Shown here: one piece after another, positions 18,430 to 31,809 of the stretch
How positions within the stretch are numbered: position 1 is the first letter of the stretch
How the letters are laid out: each line of letters opens with the position of its first letter
DNA from: Bacteroidia bacterium
Lineage (GTDB): Bacteria; Bacteroidota; Bacteroidia; 2-12-FULL-35-15
Direction of reading: 5' to 3'
DNA: 64,000 bases
NCBI GenBank assembly: GCA_030654175.1
Contig: JAURXZ010000049.1
Span: 404,334 to 468,333 of the forward strand
Position numbers and translations under genes: made by a program
Notes under the pieces: model-generated
What the model saw: only the letters and a program-made list of their open reading frames with translations
Databases searched by the model: none
What the model was told of the DNA's origin: nothing

Positions 18430-21400
18430 ATGAAAAAAATATACTTATTGGTATTGGTAAATGTATTATTTATTAAGCTTCAGGCTCAAAATTTTGAATG
18501 GACAAAAAGAGAAGGGCAAGCAGAATATGATTATGGATATGGTATAGCAAATGATACCTCAGGAAATATTTATGTTAGCGGTAAATATGAAAAGAATGCA
18601 AATTTTAGTGGAACAATTTTGCCGCTTCAAGGTAATCATGATATTTATGTTGCAAAATACAGTTCAACAGGTACATTAAAGTGGATACGAACGGCTGGTG
18701 GCATAAATGGAGATTATGCCCATACACTTGCTTGTGATGGAACTAATTTCGTATATATTGCTGGTGAAATAGAGGGCACTGGTACTCCGATAAAATTTAT
18801 TGGTTCCGCAATTACATTGGTCTGTAAAGGGATTAATGACGCTTTTTTCGCAAAATATGATCTCAATGGAAACTTAATTTGGGCAAATAGAGCTGGTGGA
18901 ACTGATAATGATGAAGCCTTAGGAATCACTTATGATAATTCAGGAAATGTTTATGTCTGTGGTTTTTTTAATGGTGCCGCTACATTTGGGACTACAACAA
19001 TCAATAGTTATGGTGATAATGATATTTATGTTGCTAAATATGACATGAATGGAATTTTTCAATGGGTGCGATCAGCCGGTAGCGCGGGAAGGGATGAAGC
19101 CAAGGCTGTAAAATGTGATGCAGCAGGAAATATTTATATATGCGGAATGCATGCCAATGGCGCTGTTTTCGGATCGCAAACCTTAAATTCTCCTAACGGT
19201 TATTTTAATTCCTTCATAGGAAAGTATAGTCCTGATGGAACATTATTGTGGGTTAAAACCGCAGGAGGTGATTACGATGATCTGGCATGGGCGTTAACAA
19301 TAGACAATTTCAACAAAATTTATATTACCGGGGAATTTAATGCGTATGCACTTTTTAATGGTACCCCTTTAATTACTACTGGAAGTAATAATATTTTTGT
19401 TGCCAGCTACGATGATGGGGGAAATTTACAATGGGTAAAGGGGGCCGGTGGTCCTGGCATTGACAGAGCAAGAGGGATAGGCTGTGATGGAAAACATGTG
19501 TATATCACTGGCCAGTTTGATTCTACGGCAACCTTCGGTCCATATTCTGTTTCAGGAGTAGACCATAACGAAATTTTTATTGCAAAAATAAGCAATGCCG
19601 GTAATTTTCAATGGGTAACCACTGTTGGTGGCCCGGTAGATTCTATTGAAGATCTTGGATACGAATCAGGAATTGGCATTTGTGCAGAAGCATCCGGTAA
19701 TGTATATGCCACAGGAGGATTGCTGAATGGAGGAGTATTTGGAAACAATTCTTTTCTTCCTTATAGCCGGGTAGATGTTTTTGTAAGCAAAATTTTGCAA
19801 AACGTTAATCCACCAAATACTTCAGACCCATCCAATTTAACAGTAATGGTTAGTAAACCCTCCACTTTTTCTGTTTCGGCAACGGGGCCTTCTCTCAATT
19901 ATCAATGGCAAAAAAATGGACTTAATATTTCGGGTGCAACATCCCCATCATTTACAATTACTAATACTCAATTTTCACATGCAGGACTATACAGGGCTAT
20001 AGTAACTAATATTTATGGCAGTGATACAAGTAATGCTGCAACACTTACTGTTATTCCTTTTAATGCCAATCCAAATGCAATTATCAATACACCTTTAACA
20101 GGAACTTTTTATCATGCGGGAGATATCATTAATTTTTCCGGTAGCGCAACCGATACGGAAGATGGAAATTTACCACCATCTGCTTTTGAATGGATGGTAG
20201 ATTTTTATACCAGCGATACTAATTTTACTCCAGGGCCGGTTATCACTTCCGGAATCTCATCTGGTTCATTTATTATTCCGAATACAGGTGAAGCTTGTGC
20301 AAATGTTTTTTACAGGCTCAGTCTAAAAGTAAAAGACTCAAATGGATTAACCGATACAACATTTGTAGATGTGTTACCTCATACTTCAACAATATCAATA
20401 AATACAGAGCCTCCTGGATTAAAGATCTCATTTAATGGCCAGACAAAACCTACGCCTTTTTCAAAACTCACTGTTGAAGGATTATTAATAAATATCGGAG
20501 TTGTTTCACCTCAAACTAAAGTGGAACTTGCCTATGTCTTTAGCAATTGGCAACATGGAGGAAACGCAACTCAAACAATTTTAACAGGGGCAGGAGACAG
20601 TTCTTATACCGCTGTATATACAAGTAATGGCCCCGCCTGCGTTGCCTCCGGCACAATAGACCGCGATTTTTGGGCTAATGTTACAGGAACTACCATAGCA
20701 AACGTTCCTATAAATATTGCACCTACAAGCACCAGCCAATTAACGATTTTTGAAGGGCCATCTCAGGTTGCAGATAATTATGCCAGCCGGATAAAAGGAT
20801 ATATCTGTCCTCCGGTAACGGGTAATTATATTTTTTGGATCGCCAGTGATAATAATAGCGAGTTATGGTTAAGCACAGATGATCAGGTAGTCAATAAAGT
20901 GAAAATAGCGTCTGCAACAGGATACACAGCTTCCAGGGAATGGACAAAATATCCAAGTCAACAATCATCTCCGGTAAGCCTTATAGCAGGCGCAAAATAT
21001 TATATTGAAGCAATACACAAAGAAGGCAATCAGGGAGATAACCTGGCTGTAGGTTGGCAACTTCCCAATGGAACTTTTGAAAGGCCAATACCAGGCACAC
21101 GACTTTCTCCTTTTATAATTCCTTTAACAACAACTATTACTTCACCCGCTAATAATAGTTTTTTTAATGAAGGGTCTACAATAACGATTCAAGCCAAAGT
21201 TACAGGTGAACCTGGAACAATACAAAAAGTAGAGTTTTTTGCCGATTCAATAAAGCTAGGGGAAGATGCAAATAGTCCTTACAGTTTTTTATGGAATAAT
21301 GTAAGTCAAGGGTCTTATGAGCTTTCTTGCAAAGTAATAGCAAGTGGAAATACTTCGGCTTTGTCGTCAAAAGTAAATGTTTTTGTAAGCCCGGCTGGAG

Positions 21401-24054
21401 GAATGTGCAGTACAACTGGCTCAATTTCGAGAGAAGTATGGAATAACATCAGTGGCATTTCAATAGGTAGTATTCCTGTTAACACGACTCCAAATTTAAT
21501 AGAACAGCTTTCTGTTTTTCGGGCACCAACAAATGTGGCCGATAATTATGGTCAGCGAATAAGAGGGTACATTTGTCCACCTGCAACAGGCAATTATATT
21601 TTCTGGATTGCCAGTGATGATAATAGCGAATTATGGTTAAGCACAAACAGCAATCCGGCAAATAAACAAAAAATTGCTTTTGTGTCAGGATATACAACAT
21701 CAAACCAATGGACAAAATATGCTAGTCAAAAGTCGGCTACTATAAGTCTTATTGGAGGTGTGAAATATTATATTGAGGCCCTACATAAAGAGGGAACCCA
21801 GGGAGATAATTGTTCTGTTGGATGGCAACTGCCAAATGGAATTTTAGAAAGACCAATTCCTGGTTCACGACTTTCTCCTTTTAGTATTCCTATAACGGCA
21901 ACTATTATTTCTCCTGCAAATAACGCCTCATTTAGTTCTGGCTCTGCTATTACTATTCAGGCCACCACATCAGGTGGTACCGGAACAATTCAAAAAGTGG
22001 AATTTTTTGCCGGAACAACAAAACTTGGTGAAAGTTTAACCAGCCCATATAATTTTATATGGAACGGTGCTGCCGCTGGTAGTTATGCACTTACGGCAAA
22101 AGTCACAGATAGTGGAAACAACACAGCTGTTTCGGGAATAATTAATATTACAGTAACAGATCTTCTAACGGCAACTATTATTTCACCAACAAATAACACT
22201 TCATTTAATGTAGGCTCTGCTATTGCTATTCAGGCCACAACATCTGGTGGGACAGGAACAATTCAAAAAGTGGATTTTTTTGCCGGAACAACAAAACTTG
22301 GCGAAAGTTTAACCAGCCCATATAATTTTACATGGAACGGTGCTGCCGCTGGTAGTTATGCACTTACGGCAAAAGTCACAGATAATGGGAACAACACAGC
22401 TGTTTCGGCAATAATTAATATTACGGTAACTGATCTTTTAACGGCAACAATTATTTCGCCAACAAATAACACCTCATTTAGTGCTGGCTCTGCTATTACT
22501 ATTCAGGCCACAACATCAGGTGGTACCGGAACAATACAAAAAGTTGAATTTTTTGAAGACACAACAAAACTTGGTGAAAGTTTAACAAGTCCATATAGTT
22601 TTACCTGGAACAATGCTCCCACTGATAATTACGCTCTTACTGCAAAAGTTAATGATAGTGGAAACAACACTGCTGTTTCGGCAATAATTAATATTACAGT
22701 GACTGATATTTTAACGGCAACTATTAGTGCTCCTGCAAATAACACTGCCTATGGTATAGGTTCTGCTATTGTTATTCAGGCCACAACATCAGGTGGTATC
22801 GGAACAATCCAAAAAGTTGAATTTTTTGCAGACACAACAAAGCTTGGTGAAAGTTTAACAAGCCCATATAGTTTTACCTGGAACAATGCTGCTCCAGGTA
22901 ATTATACACTTAAAGCTAAGGTTACAGATAGTGTTAACAATTCTGCTGTTTCGTCTATAATTAATATTGCGGTTATCAATCCACCTGTTATAAGTATAAC
23001 ATCTCCTACCAACAATACCAGTTATCCGAGCCCTGCAAACATTACCATTAATGCAACAGCAAGCTCTGGTGGAGGGAGCATAGCAAAAGTCGAATTTTAT
23101 CAGGGCGGTATTCTTCTTGGGGAAGACCTGACAACTCCATACGTTTTCACCTGGATGAATGTAAGTTCCGGAAATTATACATTAAAAGCAATAGCAACCG
23201 ACAACATTGGTCAGGCAGTCACTTCTCAGGAGGTAAACATTATTGTAACTACTTGTTCAACGCCAGTAATTACACCTTCAGGTCCTACAACTATGTGTTC
23301 CGGTTCAGTTACTTTACAAGCAAACGTAGGTTCAGGTTATATATATCAATGGAAAAAAGACGGGGTTAATATGACTGGTGAAATAAATTCTGCATACCTG
23401 GCTACAGTATCTGGCAGCTATCAGGTGAAAATTATTCAAGGTTCTTGCATATCATGGTCAGCACCCATTGCTGTGAAAATACAAAGTGGATTGAATGCCA
23501 TCATTACTCCTGGCGGTCCAACAACGTTTTGTTCGGGTGGAAGTGTAAAATTTTATGCTAATACCTGTTCAGGGTATACCTATTTATGGAAAAAAGATGG
23601 CATTGTTATTCCGGGAGAAACCGGTGCAACGTACACTGCGTCAACTGCTGGTGACTACCAGTTGCAGGTCACACTGGCTGGTGTTAAAGCCTGGTCATCA
23701 TTGGTAAAAGTAATTGTAAACGTTTGCAGGGAATTAGAAACCAACCAAAATATTGATAATAATGCCGATCAACTAACAGATTCTTCAAAAACGCTCCAGA
23801 TGAAAATCTATCCAAACCCCAACACAGGCCTTTTTACTATAGAGCTTAATATGCCTTCAATTAAGGAAGACAAAGTTAAAATGCGAGTTGTGAATATTTT
23901 AGGTCAGGAGGTTTACAACCAAGAATACATAATTAAAGATAATTATATTAAAGAAATTGTTGAATTAGATAAATCGCTTCCAATAGGTATTTACACATTA
24001 CAGGTATTGATTGGAAATAAAGTTGAGAATACAAACGTGGTTCTTTCAAAGTAA
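18430..24054 (+). CDS. Giant SBBP / PA14 / bacterial-Ig repeat protein, T9SS cargo
   Basis: Largest gene here, 1874 residues. Order: signal peptide MKKIYLLVLVNVLFIKLQAQ; SBBP propeller (20-455); Ig (457-542); PKD-like (545-655); short beta module (655-733); PA14 subtype 1 (735-896); Big_7-like Ig (897-990); PA14 subtype 2 (991-1150); four near-identical Big_7 units of exactly 91 residues (1155-1519); one divergent Big_7 (1519-1606); two short Ig modules (1607-1767); type A sorting domain (1787-1874, KIYPNPNTGLFTIEL). The Ig stalk could hold the propeller and PA14 heads away from the cell. PA14 modules in other systems bind glycans or sit beside glycosidases; that role here is inference. No catalytic domain seen. 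Confidence 0.9.
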   Translation: MKKIYLLVLVNVLFIKLQAQNFEWTKREGQAEYDYGYGIANDTSGNIYVSGKYEKNANFSGTILPLQGNHDIYVAKYSSTGTLKWIRTAGGINGDYAHTLACDGTNFVYIAGEIEGTGTPIKFIGSAITLVCKGINDAFFAKYDLNGNLIWANRAGGTDNDEALGITYDNSGNVYVCGFFNGAATFGTTTINSYGDNDIYVAKYDMNGIFQWVRSAGSAGRDEAKAVKCDAAGNIYICGMHANGAVFGSQTLNSPNGYFNSFIGKYSPDGTLLWVKTAGGDYDDLAWALTIDNFNKIYITGEFNAYALFNGTPLITTGSNNIFVASYDDGGNLQWVKGAGGPGIDRARGIGCDGKHVYITGQFDSTATFGPYSVSGVDHNEIFIAKISNAGNFQWVTTVGGPVDSIEDLGYESGIGICAEASGNVYATGGLLNGGVFGNNSFLPYSRVDVFVSKILQNVNPPNTSDPSNLTVMVSKPSTFSVSATGPSLNYQWQKNGLNISGATSPSFTITNTQFSHAGLYRAIVTNIYGSDTSNAATLTVIPFNANPNAIINTPLTGTFYHAGDIINFSGSATDTEDGNLPPSAFEWMVDFYTSDTNFTPGPVITSGISSGSFIIPNTGEACANVFYRLSLKVKDSNGLTDTTFVDVLPHTSTISINTEPPGLKISFNGQTKPTPFSKLTVEGLLINIGVVSPQTKVELAYVFSNWQHGGNATQTILTGAGDSSYTAVYTSNGPACVASGTIDRDFWANVTGTTIANVPINIAPTSTSQLTIFEGPSQVADNYASRIKGYICPPVTGNYIFWIASDNNSELWLSTDDQVVNKVKIASATGYTASREWTKYPSQQSSPVSLIAGAKYYIEAIHKEGNQGDNLAVGWQLPNGTFERPIPGTRLSPFIIPLTTTITSPANNSFFNEGSTITIQAKVTGEPGTIQKVEFFADSIKLGEDANSPYSFLWNNVSQGSYELSCKVIASGNTSALSSKVNVFVSPAGGMCSTTGSISREVWNNISGISIGSIPVNTTPNLIEQLSVFRAPTNVADNYGQRIRGYICPPATGNYIFWIASDDNSELWLSTNSNPANKQKIAFVSGYTTSNQWTKYASQKSATISLIGGVKYYIEALHKEGTQGDNCSVGWQLPNGILERPIPGSRLSPFSIPITATIISPANNASFSSGSAITIQATTSGGTGTIQKVEFFAGTTKLGESLTSPYNFIWNGAAAGSYALTAKVTDSGNNTAVSGIINITVTDLLTATIISPTNNTSFNVGSAIAIQATTSGGTGTIQKVDFFAGTTKLGESLTSPYNFTWNGAAAGSYALTAKVTDNGNNTAVSAIINITVTDLLTATIISPTNNTSFSAGSAITIQATTSGGTGTIQKVEFFEDTTKLGESLTSPYSFTWNNAPTDNYALTAKVNDSGNNTAVSAIINITVTDILTATISAPANNTAYGIGSAIVIQATTSGGIGTIQKVEFFADTTKLGESLTSPYSFTWNNAAPGNYTLKAKVTDSVNNSAVSSIINIAVINPPVISITSPTNNTSYPSPANITINATASSGGGSIAKVEFYQGGILLGEDLTTPYVFTWMNVSSGNYTLKAIATDNIGQAVTSQEVNIIVTTCSTPVITPSGPTTMCSGSVTLQANVGSGYIYQWKKDGVNMTGEINSAYLATVSGSYQVKIIQGSCISWSAPIAVKIQSGLNAIITPGGPTTFCSGGSVKFYANTCSGYTYLWKKDGIVIPGETGATYTASTAGDYQLQVTLAGVKAWSSLVKVIVNVCRELETNQNIDNNADQLTDSSKTLQMKIYPNPNTGLFTIELNMPSIKEDKVKMRVVNILGQEVYNQEYIIKDNYIKEIVELDKSLPIGIYTLQVLIGNKVENTNVVLSK
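21895..22986 (+). repeat. Four tandem 273-bp Big_7 units inside the giant SBBP gene
   Basis: Units start with ACGGCAAC at 21895, 22168, 22441 and 22714, so the period is exactly 273 bp (91 codons) each time. Units 1 and 2 look about 90 percent identical by eye over the whole unit, while 3 and 4 diverge more. The in-frame period allows copy-number change without breaking the gene. Confidence 0.9.
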
Positions 24055-24106: not shown

Positions 24107-26017
24107 ATGAAAGCAAAAAAATTCTATAGGGGCACTCTACTTTTTTTTATTCAACTGCTGATTGTTAGTCCATCCTTTTCGCAATTAAAATCAATTCTTT
24201 ATGATTTTGAAGGACTGGATATAGGTGAAACAGACCTCCCTGAGGGCGATTACCAAGGGTTTGATATGCAAAAAAATGTTTCTCTCAATCCACTTGGTGA
24301 AAGTCAGATGTTAGGGGACAGAGTACTTAAGTTAGATATAAATTGGAATGTTGGGAAAGCTCAATTCGGAAAAGGAATATCAAAATTTATAGAGTTAGAT
24401 GCATCAGCGGATTATATCAACTTTTATTTTTATAATCCTTTAACAAATGACACAAGCTCAAAGATCGATATTGCTATTAGTGAGGATGATGATAAGAATA
24501 ATGTTTGGGAGGACGCCAATGATGATAAATGGAAACGATCAATTACAATAATCCGTTCAGCTTCCTGGCAGCTTATAAGTTTACCTCTAAGTTCATTCCT
24601 TGACAACAATACAGGTGGGAATGGAGTTTTTGACGCGGCATTTACTAATCCTGGAGGCAAGATTTTTAATGTAGATTTTAATTTTTATAAAACTTTTCCA
24701 GCTGAAACAAACTCGACAACTTATATGGATATGATCTGTTTTTCAGAAGGAACTCTTCCAACAGGTAATGACATTTTAGATTACCCATCGCGAAATCCTA
24801 CAGATAAAGCTTTGCTGGGAGCCGTGTACAATTTCCCTGATATCACACCTGCTATTATTGAAGGACTTTTTCCGGCTAATCCGGTAAAAAAATTAAAGTA
24901 TATAAATTCTTTTATAAAATTTTCTGAAGATGAAACAAACATCGCAAACAAATTGCCAGGAAATGAGGTTTCCGAATTTCTTCAAAGAGGCTATACACCC
25001 ATTTTAACATGGGAAGCGATGTTCTCACACCTTTCCCGTTTGGATGCTGCACAACCCAGATTAATAAATTTTATGAAAGGAGAATTCGATTCTTATATTG
25101 ATGCATTTGGAGATAAATTAAGATCATACGATGATACAATAATTATCCGCTTTATGCATGAGTTTGAAGGTGATTGGTACCCCTGGTCGCTTGTGGAAAA
25201 TGATCAGGATCCAAATCTTTATATAAGTGTTTTCAGAAAAGTTGTAGATAGGATCAGAGCAAGAGGTGCATCAAAAGTTAAATGGATGTGGTGTGTTAAT
25301 GGACCCAGTTACAGTCCTGTTACGGCCTATAATTGGATAGTAGGCGCATACCCTGGCGATGCATACGTTGACATTGTAGCATGCGAAAATTTCAACTCAC
25401 CTGTTCCTGGAGTGCCTAATTGGAGATCGTTCCGTGCAGGACTGGCAGAACCTTATTATTATCTTACAAAATACTTTCCGAAAAAGCCGATGTTTATTTG
25501 TGAGAGTGGCTGCAGAGAACGATACTCTTCAGAAGATCCTTCTTCTCAATCGAAAGCGCAATGGATTGAAGAAATGGATAAAGAGGTGCAATCAAATTTT
25601 TCTAAAGTTAGAGCTTTGATTTTTTTTGGTCTAAAGAAGGCACATGATTACAGGTTAGAATCATCAATTGAAGGCCTCAATTCAATTGAAACAAATATTT
25701 GGAACGATGATTATTATTTTGAAACGCCATCAGCACTCCCTTTAACAGCAAACATTACTTCACCGGGTAATAATGGAACTTACATTGCAGGTTCAACCAT
25801 TATTATTAAAGCCAGTGTTTTAGGAGGAATAGGAGCGATACAAAAAGTGGAATTCTTTGCAGATACAACCAAACTTGTTGAAGATCTTACACCTCCATAT
25901 AGTTATACATCAAACAATTTTTTTCATGGTAATTATGCAATTACTGCAAAAGCAACAGATAGTTGGGGTGCAACTGTTACTTCTCTTCCTGTAAATATTA
26001 ACATAGACAGTTATTAA
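24107..26017 (+). CDS. GH26 beta-mannanase-like enzyme, prematurely terminated
   Basis: Secreted glycoside hydrolase, 636 residues as encoded. Signal peptide to about residue 26; N-terminal beta-sandwich resembling a carbohydrate-binding or galactose-binding domain (30-210, FIELDASADYINFYFYNP, WQLISLPLSSF); GH26 TIM barrel (225-540) with acid/base Glu352 in RFMHEFEGDWYPW and nucleophile Glu466 in FICESGC; one Big_7-like Ig module (545-632). GH26 enzymes usually cut beta-1,4-mannan, but some act on mixed-linkage glucan or xylan. The frame stops at 26015-26017 within a 16-bp tandem duplication, so the PA14, Ig and sorting domain downstream are not read. The barrel is complete, so an active enzyme without its T9SS signal is possible; it might stay in the periplasm. 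Confidence 0.88.
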   Translation: MKAKKFYRGTLLFFIQLLIVSPSFSQLKSILYDFEGLDIGETDLPEGDYQGFDMQKNVSLNPLGESQMLGDRVLKLDINWNVGKAQFGKGISKFIELDASADYINFYFYNPLTNDTSSKIDIAISEDDDKNNVWEDANDDKWKRSITIIRSASWQLISLPLSSFLDNNTGGNGVFDAAFTNPGGKIFNVDFNFYKTFPAETNSTTYMDMICFSEGTLPTGNDILDYPSRNPTDKALLGAVYNFPDITPAIIEGLFPANPVKKLKYINSFIKFSEDETNIANKLPGNEVSEFLQRGYTPILTWEAMFSHLSRLDAAQPRLINFMKGEFDSYIDAFGDKLRSYDDTIIIRFMHEFEGDWYPWSLVENDQDPNLYISVFRKVVDRIRARGASKVKWMWCVNGPSYSPVTAYNWIVGAYPGDAYVDIVACENFNSPVPGVPNWRSFRAGLAEPYYYLTKYFPKKPMFICESGCRERYSSEDPSSQSKAQWIEEMDKEVQSNFSKVRALIFFGLKKAHDYRLESSIEGLNSIETNIWNDDYYFETPSALPLTANITSPGNNGTYIAGSTIIIKASVLGGIGAIQKVEFFADTTKLVEDLTPPYSYTSNNFFHGNYAITAKATDSWGATVTSLPVNINIDSY

Positions 26018-26027
26018 CATAGACAGT
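25996..26027 (+). repeat. Perfect 16-bp tandem duplication that frameshifts the GH26 gene
   Basis: TATTAACATAGACAGT occurs twice back to back (25996-26011 and 26012-26027) with no mismatch. Sixteen is not a multiple of three, so the second copy creates TAT TAA and a stop. With one copy, the frame reads ...NINIDS-ASNTSCLASGKITRD... and stays open to 27107. Confidence 0.95.
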
Positions 26028-27107
26028 GCTTCAAATACTTCATGTTTAGCAAGCGGAAAAATAACCAGGGATAAATGGACTAATTTCCTGGGGAAAACGA
26101 TAGCCGAAATACCTGTTAACACTACTCCTTCAAGTACATCTTTATTAAGCCTTTTTGAAGGGCCTAAAAATATTGGTGATAATTATGCGACTAGGATCAG
26201 GGGTTATATTTGTCCACCTTCATCAGGTAATTATGTTTTTTGGATTGCCAGTGACAACAACAGTGAATTATATTTGAGCTCAACAAATAATCCAAATGAT
26301 AAAGTTAAAATCGCACAACAAGATTTTTATACCACTTCACGTCAATGGACAAAATACGACAAACAGCAATCTTTAGAGATTCCTTTAATTGCCGGTCAAA
26401 GTTATTATATAGAGGCATTGCACCGGGAGGGCTCTGTAAGTGATAATTTGGCAGTAGGTTGGAAATTACCTGATGGTACGATGGAAAGGCCTATACCGGG
26501 AATTCGATTGTCTCCTTTTCAAACAGGGTTAAATTTAGATGTTAAACTACCGGTAAGCGCTGTTCCAAAAATTATAGTAACCGGACCGGTGGAAATAAAC
26601 AAAGATGAAGAAACAATTTTGTCAACTGAGTTGGATCCATCCGCTATTTATCAATGGAAAATAAATAATGTAATAATTCCAATGAGCAACAAAAATTTTC
26701 TAATAGCAACTGAACCGGGGTCATATCGGGTTAAAGTAATAAAGAATGGAACGGTAGGTCTATCAGAAACTGTTGATATTATTGGAAACAATAACGCAGA
26801 CATGATGAACCTGTCAAATAATAAATATCCAAAAGATGCAAATGAAACTGCTGTTCTTTTAAAAGTATATCCAAATCCAAATACCGGACACTTTATGATA
26901 GTTGTATGTATGCCCGCATCGGAGTTGGCAAAGATACAGATGATGAATAATTTAGGTCAGGTTGTGTATAATAAAGAAATAAAGACTCAAAATGACTGTA
27001 TAAATGAAACCGTAGAAATTGATAAATCTATTCCTCCGGGAATTTATACCCTTAAAGTAATAAGCGGTAATAAAGTTGAAAATACGAATGTGATCCTGTT
27101 AAGATGA
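26028..27107 (+). pseudogene. Detached GH26 tail: PA14 domain, short Ig, T9SS sorting domain
   Basis: Open in one frame from 26028 to the stop at 27105-27107 but with no credible start; a TTG at 26274 lies in mid-PA14. Content: PA14 subtype 1 (26041-26520; CLASGKITRDKW, YATRIRGYICPP, FWIASDNNSELYLS, DNLAVGWKLPDG, ERPIPGIRLSPF), a short Ig-like module (26570-26780) and a type A sorting domain (26860-27104; KVYPNPNTGHFMIVV, GIYTLKVISGNKVENTNVIL). It is the 3' part of the gene at 24107: with one 16-bp copy removed the fused product would be 994 residues. No further stop or frameshift is present in 1,080 bases, so the break is recent, phase-variable, or a sequence error. Confidence 0.9.
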
Positions 27108-27912
27108 CATTATTTTTTGATGTCAATTATTCAGCGCAGTCGAAATTTTTTGAAATCAAAAAACAGACACGACCTATTTTCTAAAAATAATAATTTTATA
27201 ATAACTGAAAATGCCCTGCTGTTTAATTTGCTTCCTAATCCAATCACCTGGCTAATTACATTAATTGTATTTATTCAAGCTCCAGATTGGAGGGAAGTTT
27301 CAGCACATGAATAATTTACGTCATACATAAACTGTTCGTTTTTTAGAGCGCATACAATATTATTTGCTCTGGTTAATTTTAATCAAATTGATTTCCTATC
27401 TTAAGAGATGAAAAAAGCCATTTAGTCAATTTTTCACTTTTTTACTTCCTGTTTTTTTGAAAATAATTCTAATCTCTGTATCAAAAAAAATACACTTTTT
27501 TTCTCCTACCATTTTTTCTTTTACATTTCATCCAGTCTCATAATATTATTTTTTTTTACGAAAAAAATAAATTTCCGTTTTCCTGGCCCCAAAACAACTA
27601 TTAATACTATAAATGAAAGTGTTTTTGAATTGCTGGAAACATAAAAATGATAGTCGAGAACGATTAATTTAACGTTCGCTAAACAATTTTCATTTATTGT
27701 TTTCGTTATCGTAAAGGCTCCTTCCAATAAATAGACGTTGAAGTAATTAAAAAAATAGCCAAGAACTGGCACAAAATAGCCAAACAGCTAAATTACGTTA
27801 GTTGCACGTTTCAAAAGGATGAAATCCGTAAAGGAAATCCTATGTCATTTTGTGGAAGTATTAGCCGGATTAATAAGTAATTATTTTTTAATACATTTTT
27901 AAATTGATCATC
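27108..27912. other. Long AT-rich intergenic region after the broken GH26 gene
   Basis: 805 bp without a convincing gene. A 65-codon frame at 27117-27314 has no homologue I know; a stretch in it reads LLPNPITWLITL, loosely like a decayed YPNP sorting motif. An 11-base direct repeat lies at 27752-27783. The end must carry the promoter of the next gene, but I see no exact TAnnTTTG box. Confidence 0.5.
27752..27783 (+). repeat. Short direct repeat upstream of the GH-A/Ig gene
   Basis: AAAATAGCCAA at 27752-27762 and again at 27773-27783, a 21-base period (two helical turns), about 130 bases before the ATG at 27913. It could bind a regulator; there is no further support. Confidence 0.35.
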
Positions 27913-30900
27913 ATGAGGAAACTAAAAAAAACATTTCAGCTTGGCAGTTTTTTACTATTGAGTTTATTCTTTTTTTCAAAAAGTACTGAAGCGCAAAGCA
28001 TTTCAACGCATTTTTTCGGTGTAAATGCATGGATGTCGGATACTATTGGGAATTATTATGCATGTCCTGAACCGCCCTGTTTTCGTGGCGGTAAACTACA
28101 TAAGCATTGGACGAAAATTAAAGACAGTGGTGCATCTATGATTCGTTACGGAGGAATAGGCCCTGATAAAAACATGCCGACAAAATTTCAATACATCAGA
28201 ATGATTGATTCTATCCGTTCAAAAGGAATGGAACCAGTAATCCAAGTGCCATTTTATAACTATCGGTATACTGCTCAACAGGCTGCTGATATTGTACATT
28301 ATGTAAATGTTATAAAAGGTAGAAATGTTAAATACTGGATCATCGCAAATGAACCTAACTTAATTTACTCCTATACTTCTGCTGCGCAAGTGGCTGCTTA
28401 TTTTAAACCATTTGCATCGGCAATGAAAAATGTGGATCCTTCTATTCTCATTATTGGTCCTGAAACAGCGAGTTTTAAAAAAAGTATGACTGATGATCTA
28501 ACCAATCCTGGTGGTCCAAATGATATTACAGGTAAAGATGGAGCAGGAAGATATTACCTGGATGTTTTTTCATTCCATACGTATCCAATGCATGGTGGAA
28601 GCCATACCAGGGCTGAGATGATTCCGAAACTCACTGCTTCAGGATCTTACCAGGATAATTTAATTTACCTGAACACCAAACTGGCTGCCGCGAATTCTTA
28701 TCATAACCGAACAGGAGCAACCGCTCTAAAATCAGCTGTTACCGAAACTAATGTTACTTATACAAATGCCTCTACGGATGGTTTAAATGGTGTAGGTTCC
28801 AATAGTTTTATTGGCGGGCAGTTTGTGGCCGAGATCTATGGTATTGGTTTAAAATGCGGAGTTGACTTTATTAATTTATGGAGTGTAATAGAAGGGGGAA
28901 CATCTGTAATTAATAATGGTGGTTATCTACATGGTTCAACCGGAAATAAAAAGCCAACCTATTATCATTTTAAACTTATGGCAGATAATTTCAGAGGAAC
29001 CAATGCGAATTGCACCAGCAATCAGGTAAACGTAAAGTCATTTGCAAGTAAAGATGCCCAGCAGATTGCTGTATTAATTTTAAATGAGGACCTGACTAAT
29101 AATTTTAATTATACTGTTCGGTTGAATACTACGTCAATAACCGGAACCAGTGCATTAAAGCTCAATGTAAATGCAGGGTTAGCAAAAGAATATACGGCTG
29201 TTATCCAAAATCAGTCTACTACATTATTGCTATTCGATGGAAATGGAAATATTATAAAAAAATATGAATATAAACTTTCAGGAAATGCAAATCTGAATCT
29301 ACCACCAACACTTACAATATTGGCTTCTTCTTCTCCAATAGCAACTATAACTGCAGCAGGTTCAACCTCTTTTTGTGCCGGTGGTAGTGTAACATTAAAT
29401 GCCAACGTAGGAACAGGGTATTCATATCAATGGAAAAAAGATAATACCATTATCAGTGGAGCTACTAATTCATCTTATGTAGTTACTGTATCTGGTAATT
29501 ATACAGTAACTGTCACCACAGGTAGTGGAACAACTACATCCGTTTCCGAGGTTGTAACAGTAATGCCTATGCCTATCGCAACAATTACAGCTGCTGGACC
29601 AACTTCATTTACAGCTGGCAATAGTGTAATATTAAATGCCTCAGCAGGAAATGGGTATATTTATCAATGGAAAAAAGATGGCGTTAATATTATTGGCGCG
29701 ACCAACTCTTCTTATCTTGCCACGCAAGCAGGTAGTTATCAGGTGAAAATCACATTGGGTTCCTGTATTGATTGGTCGGCCACAATTACAATTACTATTC
29801 TTTCAACAACAACAGCAACTATAACTCCTTCGGGGCCAACCAGTTTTTGTGCCGGAGGCAGTGTAACATTAAATGCCAATACAGGAACAGGGTATTCATA
29901 TCAATGGAAAAAAGATAATACCATTATCAGTGGCGCTACTAATTCATCTTATGTAGTTACTGTTTCAGGAAATTATACCGTAACTATAACTGCCGGAGGT
30001 GGATCCACTACATCAGTTGCAGAGGTTGTAACAATTACTCCTTCGCCTACTGCAACAATTACAGCTGCAGGGCCAACTTCATTTATTGCTGGTAATAGTG
30101 TAATATTAAATGCTTCAACCGGAACAGGCTATACTTACCAGTGGAAAAGGGATGGTGTTAATATTATTGGTGCTACAAATTCTTCTTACGTTGCCAATCA
30201 GGCTGGCAGTTATCAGGCACAGATCACATTAGGTTCCTGTATGGAATTGTCAGCCTCTCTTACAATTACACTTCTTCCTCCAACAGCTACAATTACAGCT
30301 TCAGGTGCCACCAGCTTTTGTGATGGAGGAAGTGTAACACTGAATGCAAATTCCGGAACCGGATATAGTTATCAATGGAAAAAAGATAATGTTGTTATTG
30401 TCGGATCTGTTAATTCATATTATATAGCTACGGTGTCCGGAAATTTTTCTGTAGATATAACCAGTGGAGGATTAACAGCTACATCAGCAACTCAGGTTAT
30501 AACAGTAATGCCTATGCCTACTGCAACAATTACAGCTGCAGGACCAACTTCATTTACAGCTGGCAATAGTGTAATATTAAATGCTTCAGCAGGAAATGGG
30601 TATATTTATCAATGGAAAAAAGATGGCGTTAATATTTCGGGGGCCACAAATTCTTCTTACGTTGCCGCGCAAGGAGGGCGTTATCAGGTCAAAATTACTT
30701 TAGGTTCCTGTATTGATTGGTCAGCGCCTCTTACAATTATTATCCTTGCCCCAGTGGCAACAATTACAGTTTCTGGTCCTACCAGCTTTTGTGATGGAGG
30801 TAATGTAACATTGAATGCAAATACAGGAACAGGATATAACTACCAATGGAAAAAAGATAATGTTGTTATTGGCGGAGCAACTAGTTCGTCCTATATCGCT

Positions 30901-31809
30901 TCGGTATCCGGTAGTTACTCAGTTGATGTGACCAATGGAAGTCTTACAAATACATCTGAGCCTGTTGTGATAACAGTGATTCCCGCACCTTCTGCAGTAA
31001 TAACACCTTCCGGTCCCACAACGATGTGTTCAGGTTCTGTTGGGTTAAAAGCCAATAGCGGGTCCGGCTATATTTATCAATGGCAAAAAAATAATAATTC
31101 AATAACAGGTGCAACTAATGCCGTATATTCAGCTTCAACAACTGGTTCTTATCAGGTTAAAATTACCCAGGGTAACTGTTCAGCAATGTCAGCACCTATA
31201 CTTGTGAAGATAGAAAATGTTTTGTACGCATCTATCACTCCTGCTGGGCCTACAACATTTTGTGCCGGAGGAAAAGTAATATTATATGCTAGTACATGTT
31301 CCGGTTATATATATCAATGGAAAAGAAATGGAGCAAATATTTCAGGAGCAACATCCTCAACGTATACTGCAACAGTTTCTGGAAGCTATCAGATAAAGAT
31401 CACTAAAAATGGAATAACTGATTGGTCAGCACCTTTAATGGTTACAGTAAATACCTGTAAGTCAGTTGAAACAGTATCGGACGATGGAACCGAAACGGAT
31501 CCCCTCGCTTCAGCCAATTCAATTTCTGATTCTGAAATTGAAAATAGTAAAAATTTCGAAATTAATGTATTTCCAAATCCTTCCAATGGAAAGTTTCTTG
31601 TTGAATTAAAAATTGAAAATTCAGAGGAAAAAAAATTCGAAATCGAGGTTATCAATAATCTAGGTCAAAATGTTTACCGTAAAAATTCTAATTTTACAAA
31701 TGGAGTAGAAGAGATAGAATTAAATGGTGATATTGCACCGGGACTTTATATACTCAATGTTAAAGGCGCAAATAGCGTCTCAACCAAAAGGATTGTCCTG
31801 AATAAATAA
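27913..31809 (+). CDS. Clan GH-A glycoside hydrolase with nine Ig modules, T9SS cargo
   Basis: Secreted protein of 1298 residues. Signal peptide to about residue 28; TIM-barrel hydrolase (30-460) opening with FFGVNAWMSD, then RYGGIGPD, candidate acid/base Glu147 in IIANEPN and candidate nucleophile Glu278 in AVTETN, 131 residues apart as in clan GH-A. It does not clearly match one family by eye (GH39, 44, 51 and 79 share parts), so the substrate is unknown. Next come nine short Ig-like modules (476-1181), seven of them in an alternating A-B pattern, and a sorting domain (1214-1298, NVFPNPSNGKFLVEL). ATG 27913 is preferred to the in-frame TTG at 27904. Related barrels occur at 33361 and 37123. 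A strong terminator follows. Confidence 0.85.
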   Translation: MRKLKKTFQLGSFLLLSLFFFSKSTEAQSISTHFFGVNAWMSDTIGNYYACPEPPCFRGGKLHKHWTKIKDSGASMIRYGGIGPDKNMPTKFQYIRMIDSIRSKGMEPVIQVPFYNYRYTAQQAADIVHYVNVIKGRNVKYWIIANEPNLIYSYTSAAQVAAYFKPFASAMKNVDPSILIIGPETASFKKSMTDDLTNPGGPNDITGKDGAGRYYLDVFSFHTYPMHGGSHTRAEMIPKLTASGSYQDNLIYLNTKLAAANSYHNRTGATALKSAVTETNVTYTNASTDGLNGVGSNSFIGGQFVAEIYGIGLKCGVDFINLWSVIEGGTSVINNGGYLHGSTGNKKPTYYHFKLMADNFRGTNANCTSNQVNVKSFASKDAQQIAVLILNEDLTNNFNYTVRLNTTSITGTSALKLNVNAGLAKEYTAVIQNQSTTLLLFDGNGNIIKKYEYKLSGNANLNLPPTLTILASSSPIATITAAGSTSFCAGGSVTLNANVGTGYSYQWKKDNTIISGATNSSYVVTVSGNYTVTVTTGSGTTTSVSEVVTVMPMPIATITAAGPTSFTAGNSVILNASAGNGYIYQWKKDGVNIIGATNSSYLATQAGSYQVKITLGSCIDWSATITITILSTTTATITPSGPTSFCAGGSVTLNANTGTGYSYQWKKDNTIISGATNSSYVVTVSGNYTVTITAGGGSTTSVAEVVTITPSPTATITAAGPTSFIAGNSVILNASTGTGYTYQWKRDGVNIIGATNSSYVANQAGSYQAQITLGSCMELSASLTITLLPPTATITASGATSFCDGGSVTLNANSGTGYSYQWKKDNVVIVGSVNSYYIATVSGNFSVDITSGGLTATSATQVITVMPMPTATITAAGPTSFTAGNSVILNASAGNGYIYQWKKDGVNISGATNSSYVAAQGGRYQVKITLGSCIDWSAPLTIIILAPVATITVSGPTSFCDGGNVTLNANTGTGYNYQWKKDNVVIGGATSSSYIASVSGSYSVDVTNGSLTNTSEPVVITVIPAPSAVITPSGPTTMCSGSVGLKANSGSGYIYQWQKNNNSITGATNAVYSASTTGSYQVKITQGNCSAMSAPILVKIENVLYASITPAGPTTFCAGGKVILYASTCSGYIYQWKRNGANISGATSSTYTATVSGSYQIKITKNGITDWSAPLMVTVNTCKSVETVSDDGTETDPLASANSISDSEIENSKNFEINVFPNPSNGKFLVELKIENSEEKKFEIEVINNLGQNVYRKNSNFTNGVEEIELNGDIAPGLYILNVKGANSVSTKRIVLNK
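29341..30999 (+). repeat. Alternating A-B Ig repeats (471-474 bp dimers)
   Basis: A-type units (SFC.GG.VTLNA...YQWKKDN) start near 29341, 29815, 30286 and 30757; B-type units (SFTAGNSVILNAS...YQWK.DGVNI) start near 29578, 30052 and 30523. The A-to-A and B-to-B steps are 474 or 471 bp, so the array grew by copying whole dimers. All steps are in frame. Confidence 0.88.

Follow-up and report, generated by a model that had tools for sequence, protein, structure and literature searches.

A T9SS-exported GH26 enzyme has been cut off from its secretion signal by a perfect 16-bp tandem duplication, which was probably one recent, revertible loss-of-function event rather than an evolved switch. The duplication brings a stop codon into frame between complete domains, and the severed tail still bears the marks of a gene end under selection. 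The locus lies in a 64,000-nucleotide stretch of DNA (hereafter the window), and its features in window coordinates are as follows.

18430–24054, forward strand: upstream neighbour, a large PA14/Big_7 T9SS cargo gene
24107–26017, forward strand: truncated gene with Sec-type signal peptide, GH26 and Big_7, ending ...NINIDSY and stop (636 aa)
25996–26011, forward strand: copy 1 of TATTAACATAGACAGT, whose counterpart in a relative is single and partly changed
26012–26027, forward strand: copy 2 of TATTAACATAGACAGT, the duplicate, which brings the in-frame TAA and a +1 shift
26015–26017, forward strand: premature stop codon TAA, inside the second copy
26028–27107, forward strand: severed tail with PA14, a linker and a Por_Secre_tail T9SS sorting domain (359 aa)

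The unit TATTAACATAGACAGT is present twice, perfect and adjacent, and both a direct sequence search and Tandem Repeats Finder (2.0 copies, 100% match, score 64) found the two identical back-to-back copies at 25996–26027 exactly as an earlier note on this DNA had described them. The 64-kb window holds no further site resembling this unit when as many as 2 mismatches are allowed, where chance alone would give 0.04. As the note had also claimed, the duplication puts a TAA in frame: the frame from 24107 crosses the first copy and ends at 26015–26017 after 636 codons, and the frame past the second copy is open until 27107, a length of 359 residues. Deleting either copy in silico reproduced the predicted rejoining into one frame with a sorting-domain end, yielding in both cases the identical 994-residue protein, whose sole stop is terminal and whose layout is GH26-Big_7-PA14-T9SS sorting domain. 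The 16-bp length is not divisible by three, so copy number sets the frame, one copy encoding 994 and two copies 636 amino acids. The duplication sits in the linker that joins Big_7 to PA14; flanking microhomology was sought there and not found, so the usual slippage route of origin is not visible.

By Pfam, the stop separates GH26 and Big_7 on its 5' side from PA14 and Por_Secre_tail on its 3' side, which agrees with the note's reading that the T9SS signal and PA14 had been cut off a GH26 enzyme. The GH26 match (PF02156) scored 41.9 bits against a curated cut-off of 20.2, and endoglucanase H chains (e.g. 2bv9) were the best PDB matches to this part (E ~1e-26). Both the catalytic domain and Big_7 are complete within the truncated product, which by our reading of the sequence begins with the signal peptide MKAKKFYRGTLLFFIQLLIVSPSFSQ. 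In the two-copy allele this signal peptide and the sorting domain are no longer on one polypeptide, as they are in the one-copy form. The tail is probably not translatable as a useful protein by itself, because it has neither a start codon nor a signal peptide of its own; internal restart was ruled out as well, the first possible start being a TTG at 26274, within PA14. The export machinery itself is present in the genome (SprA_N, 552.7 bits at C6:361659–363239), as are at least 150 sorting domains among the matches listed.

The duplication is known from one assembly only, of one genome of the species, and a near-identical locus was found in none of the 36 genomes of the genus sample. The closest relative that we found, G017, belongs to the same genus and carries the orthologue at the syntenic position with ~79–85% DNA identity; it is a fragmented metagenome-assembled genome (MAG) of 790 contigs in which the orthologue is split over contigs C723 and C496. 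Across the site the orthologue reads ...QVNINIESTLNTCSATGKITRDKW..., a single copy in one open frame, and C496 continues in frame through the site (...QVNINIESTLNTCSATGKITRDKWTNFLGKT...) with one partly changed copy and no repeat. The end of a sorting-domain gene lies upstream of the orthologue, as in the window. Moreover, GH26 relatives of at least 48% identity with a complete C-terminus all finish in a T9SS-type sorting tail. Because G017 is single-copy and in frame, and because those GH26 genes of the subfamily whose ends are complete all carry such a tail, comparison of these sequences indicates that the one-copy, full-length form is ancestral.

The G017 gene has a lesion of its own, a 1-bp deletion (TCACC to TCCC) at about residue 437 on C723 (JAIOQD010000793.1; L043, ~2860), which breaks the GH26 catalytic frame close to the contig end. 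Either the MAG is in error here or this gene has been damaged independently in G017.

We estimated the age of the truncation from selection on the severed tail. Between the window and G017, dN/dS was 0.127 for the tail and 0.119 for the catalytic part; within the tail it was 0.063 for PA14, 0.269 for the linker and 0.126 for the sorting domain, and the alignment of 355 tail codons contained no stops or gaps. When amino-acid changes were placed on branches using outgroups and paralogues, the window branch and that of the relative each received 21 in the tail, against 24 and 22, respectively, in the body. As a rough bound, a neutral tail phase longer than ~0.11 of the window branch is rejected at 5%, and the complete lack of stops in 359 tail codons limits neutral divergence, again roughly, to at most ~0.06 substitutions per site at the same level. 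The two bounds agree, which suggests that the truncation is young and confined to about the most recent tenth of the history of this lineage. The tail thus shows no pseudogene-type decay, with neither relaxed selection nor any further stop or frameshift. The note's remark that the tail is otherwise undecayed holds, and its reading of a very recent loss gains support from this and from the single-copy, in-frame orthologue.

An undecayed tail is the expectation for a brand-new mutation and equally for an error, and an assembly error was one of the options in the earlier note. In an artefact of this sort, 16-bp-overlapping contig ends would have been joined unmerged, or a culture clone sequenced, with the natural population intact. 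The evidence comes from a single assembly of 51 contigs, and an unmerged overlap would account for a perfect, unextended repeat just as well as a mutation would. Against such an artefact, the 16-bp unit is far below the size of a sequencing read, and the long contigs that we examined have no internal N runs. We also surveyed 2.31 Mb (45% of the genome) for tandem duplications and found 68 perfect arrays of period at least 10, of which 18 had a period of at least 12 that was not a multiple of three; among the perfect duplications of at least 12 bp, only that in the GH26 gene splits a long frame. In 1.2 Mb of Markov-random sequence, perfect arrays with a period of at least 16 were absent. One 10-bp duplication, at L194:5279, was initially scored as frame-splitting; inspected by eye, it sits close to where what appears to be an ABC-transporter ATPase gene ends on the opposite strand, and we judged it spurious on the forward strand.

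In a parallel survey of 2.25 Mb, the GH26 tail was the only one of 99 sorting-domain frames to be severed from an upstream enzyme. The other sorting-domain frames that closely follow another gene begin with their own signal peptide. Short sorting-domain frames, screened as further candidates for severed tails, nearly all had a signal peptide of their own, and none lay behind a split enzyme. With a single case in both the duplication and the sorting-domain surveys, there is no sign of a systematic fault in the assembly, nor of switching as a habit across the genome. Taken together, we regard an artefact as unlikely.

Another option in the earlier note was a reversible slippage switch, with a possible role in phase variation. 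In a dedicated switch of this kind, one copy would put the enzyme on the surface and two would hold it in the periplasm, slippage would convert one state into the other, and selection would maintain the arrangement. The geometry fits, as the unit is not a multiple of three, the stop falls between complete domains and the tail is intact, and there are precedents for de novo two-copy duplications in pneumococcal cap3A, cap8E and tts, as far as these are described in papers citing the original reports, and in the PenA repeats (PMC4169377). A dedicated switch is nevertheless not supported: the closest orthologue has no repeat at the site, nothing similar occurs in the 98 other sorting-domain frames or as another split T9SS cargo in the 45% of the genome covered, and the site has neither a hairpin nor other structure (DNA fold z-scores 0.86 and 0.93). 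In addition, the repeat has just two copies, the minimum, for which published work suggests reversion at ~1e-5 or less. Two of the two-copy repeats in PenA reverted at 9.3e-7 to 3.6e-5 (PMC4169377) and short pneumococcal duplications are expected to revert at no more than ~1e-5 (PMC4022640), rates that come from other species and other repeat lengths.

As in a phase-variable locus, copy number here switches the frame; the repeat is not conserved in relatives as such a locus would have it, since G017 carries a single, partly different copy. For this reason, and because interconversion is argued by analogy, we do not class the allele as a phase-variable locus. A switch maintained by selection is very unlikely, and we give marginally less weight still to the idea that the duplication toggles in the natural population, with some cells exporting the GH26 enzyme and others keeping it in the periplasm. 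Were toggling to occur, it would be phase variation of a protein's destination (T9SS signal on or off) and not of its expression.

Stable gene fission would instead mean that a periplasmic short form is useful and that the tail will decay. Truncation directly after a complete Big_7 domain is consistent with this, as is the existence of a paralogue (C5:15531–17186) which, like its relatives, naturally ends after the catalytic domain. Yet the tail is without decay and the subfamily GH26 genes with a complete end all carry a sorting domain, making adaptive retention highly improbable. Least credible is +1 ribosomal frameshifting at TAT TAA C, whether programmed or spontaneous, that yields some full-length enzyme (...DSY-NIDSAS...). 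With the tail frame open from 26007 (its last upstream stop is at 26004), slipping +1 immediately ahead of the TAA would lead back into it, and an intact tail is compatible with this; but the shift would be confined to ~11 bases, the relative G017 needs no frameshift, we know of no +1 slippery site of the form TAT TAA C, and tRNA-Tyr on UAU does not re-pair with AUU.

We favor a single recent duplication and propose the following course of events. A spontaneous 16-bp tandem duplication would have arisen once, recently, in a gene for a T9SS-exported GH26 enzyme, bringing with it the one-base frame shift and the TAA that we observe. The predicted product retains the signal peptide, GH26 and Big_7 and lacks PA14 and the sorting domain; it would cross the inner membrane via Sec but go no further, staying periplasmic and not arriving at the surface. 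The intact gene could come back by replication slippage between the two perfect direct copies still present, at a rate that, judged from published repeats, would be low, perhaps ~1e-6 to 1e-5 per cell.

By analogy with Porphyromonas gingivalis RgpB, which without its CTD is unsecreted and periplasmic (PMC5445135; PMC11285876), the two-copy allele should give a periplasmic, non-secreted GH26 protein. The earlier note had called this form cell-retained; periplasmic is the better term, since a Sec-type signal peptide is still present.

The same genome encodes a second GH26 protein, the paralogue at C5:15531–17186 (L092, L202), which has 569 aa and a signal peptide but neither PA14 nor a sorting tail. 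Relatives of this paralogue within the genus, 34–37% identical to the window enzyme, are tail-less too. Given this tail-less paralogue, some periplasmic GH26 protein may already be present.

The surroundings of the gene are rich in repeated modules. A dense run of large sorting-domain proteins with shuffled PA14, Big_7 and Ig modules extends over 8366–47037, amid which occur GSDH, metallophosphoesterase, GH18 and GH26 domains. An array at 21893–22968 (3.9 copies, 273-bp unit, 86% matches) encodes repeated Big_7 domains of the adjacent 1874-aa cargo gene, and Ig-like domains make up 3.2 copies of a 471-bp unit at 29371–30861 in a 1301-aa sorting-domain protein at 27904–31809. PA14 copies ~54–63% identical to that of the severed tail recur genome-wide.

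The locus is a natural and clean case of a T9SS cargo losing its signal through one small duplication with the tail undamaged, and the allele would be a ready-made way to ask what a surface enzyme does when confined to the periplasm. Finding the two forms together in a population would amount to phase variation of protein destination, of which the literature that we searched contains no T9SS example. For annotation, the lesson is that a gene recorded as truncated and without a sorting domain could be a single slippage event away from the intact form.

The components of this system can be set against known ones. The catalytic domain is clearly recognized as that of the GH26 glycoside hydrolases (PF02156, PDB 2bv9), from which the ancestral form here differs by the addition of Big_7, PA14 and a T9SS tail; we treat it as a putative enzyme. 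As for RgpB, likewise a T9SS cargo, loss of the CTD is expected to leave a folded periplasmic protein, although the RgpB truncations were made in the laboratory whereas the GH26 truncation occurs in a sequenced genome. The duplication event is of a known kind, represented by the PenA repeats and, in the reports as cited by later papers, by pneumococcal cap3A, cap8E and tts. Like the GH26 repeat, those of the PenA beta-lactamase are de novo two-copy coding duplications (9–60 bp), but they add amino acids to an enzyme that still works, whereas the 16-bp GH26 repeat shifts the frame and truncates (PMC4169377). The pneumococcal capsule-gene duplications were reported as reversible phase variation (Waite et al. 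2001, 2003, cited in PMC4243769 and PMC4022640), and the logic at the DNA level is the same as here: a de novo tandem duplication within a reading frame turns the gene off, and loss of one copy turns it on. According to those citing accounts, reversible switching of cap3A, cap8E and tts was observed in culture, whereas the GH26 allele is known in a single state from one genome; the effect also differs, in that the pneumococcal genes lose enzyme activity and the GH26 allele loses its export signal.
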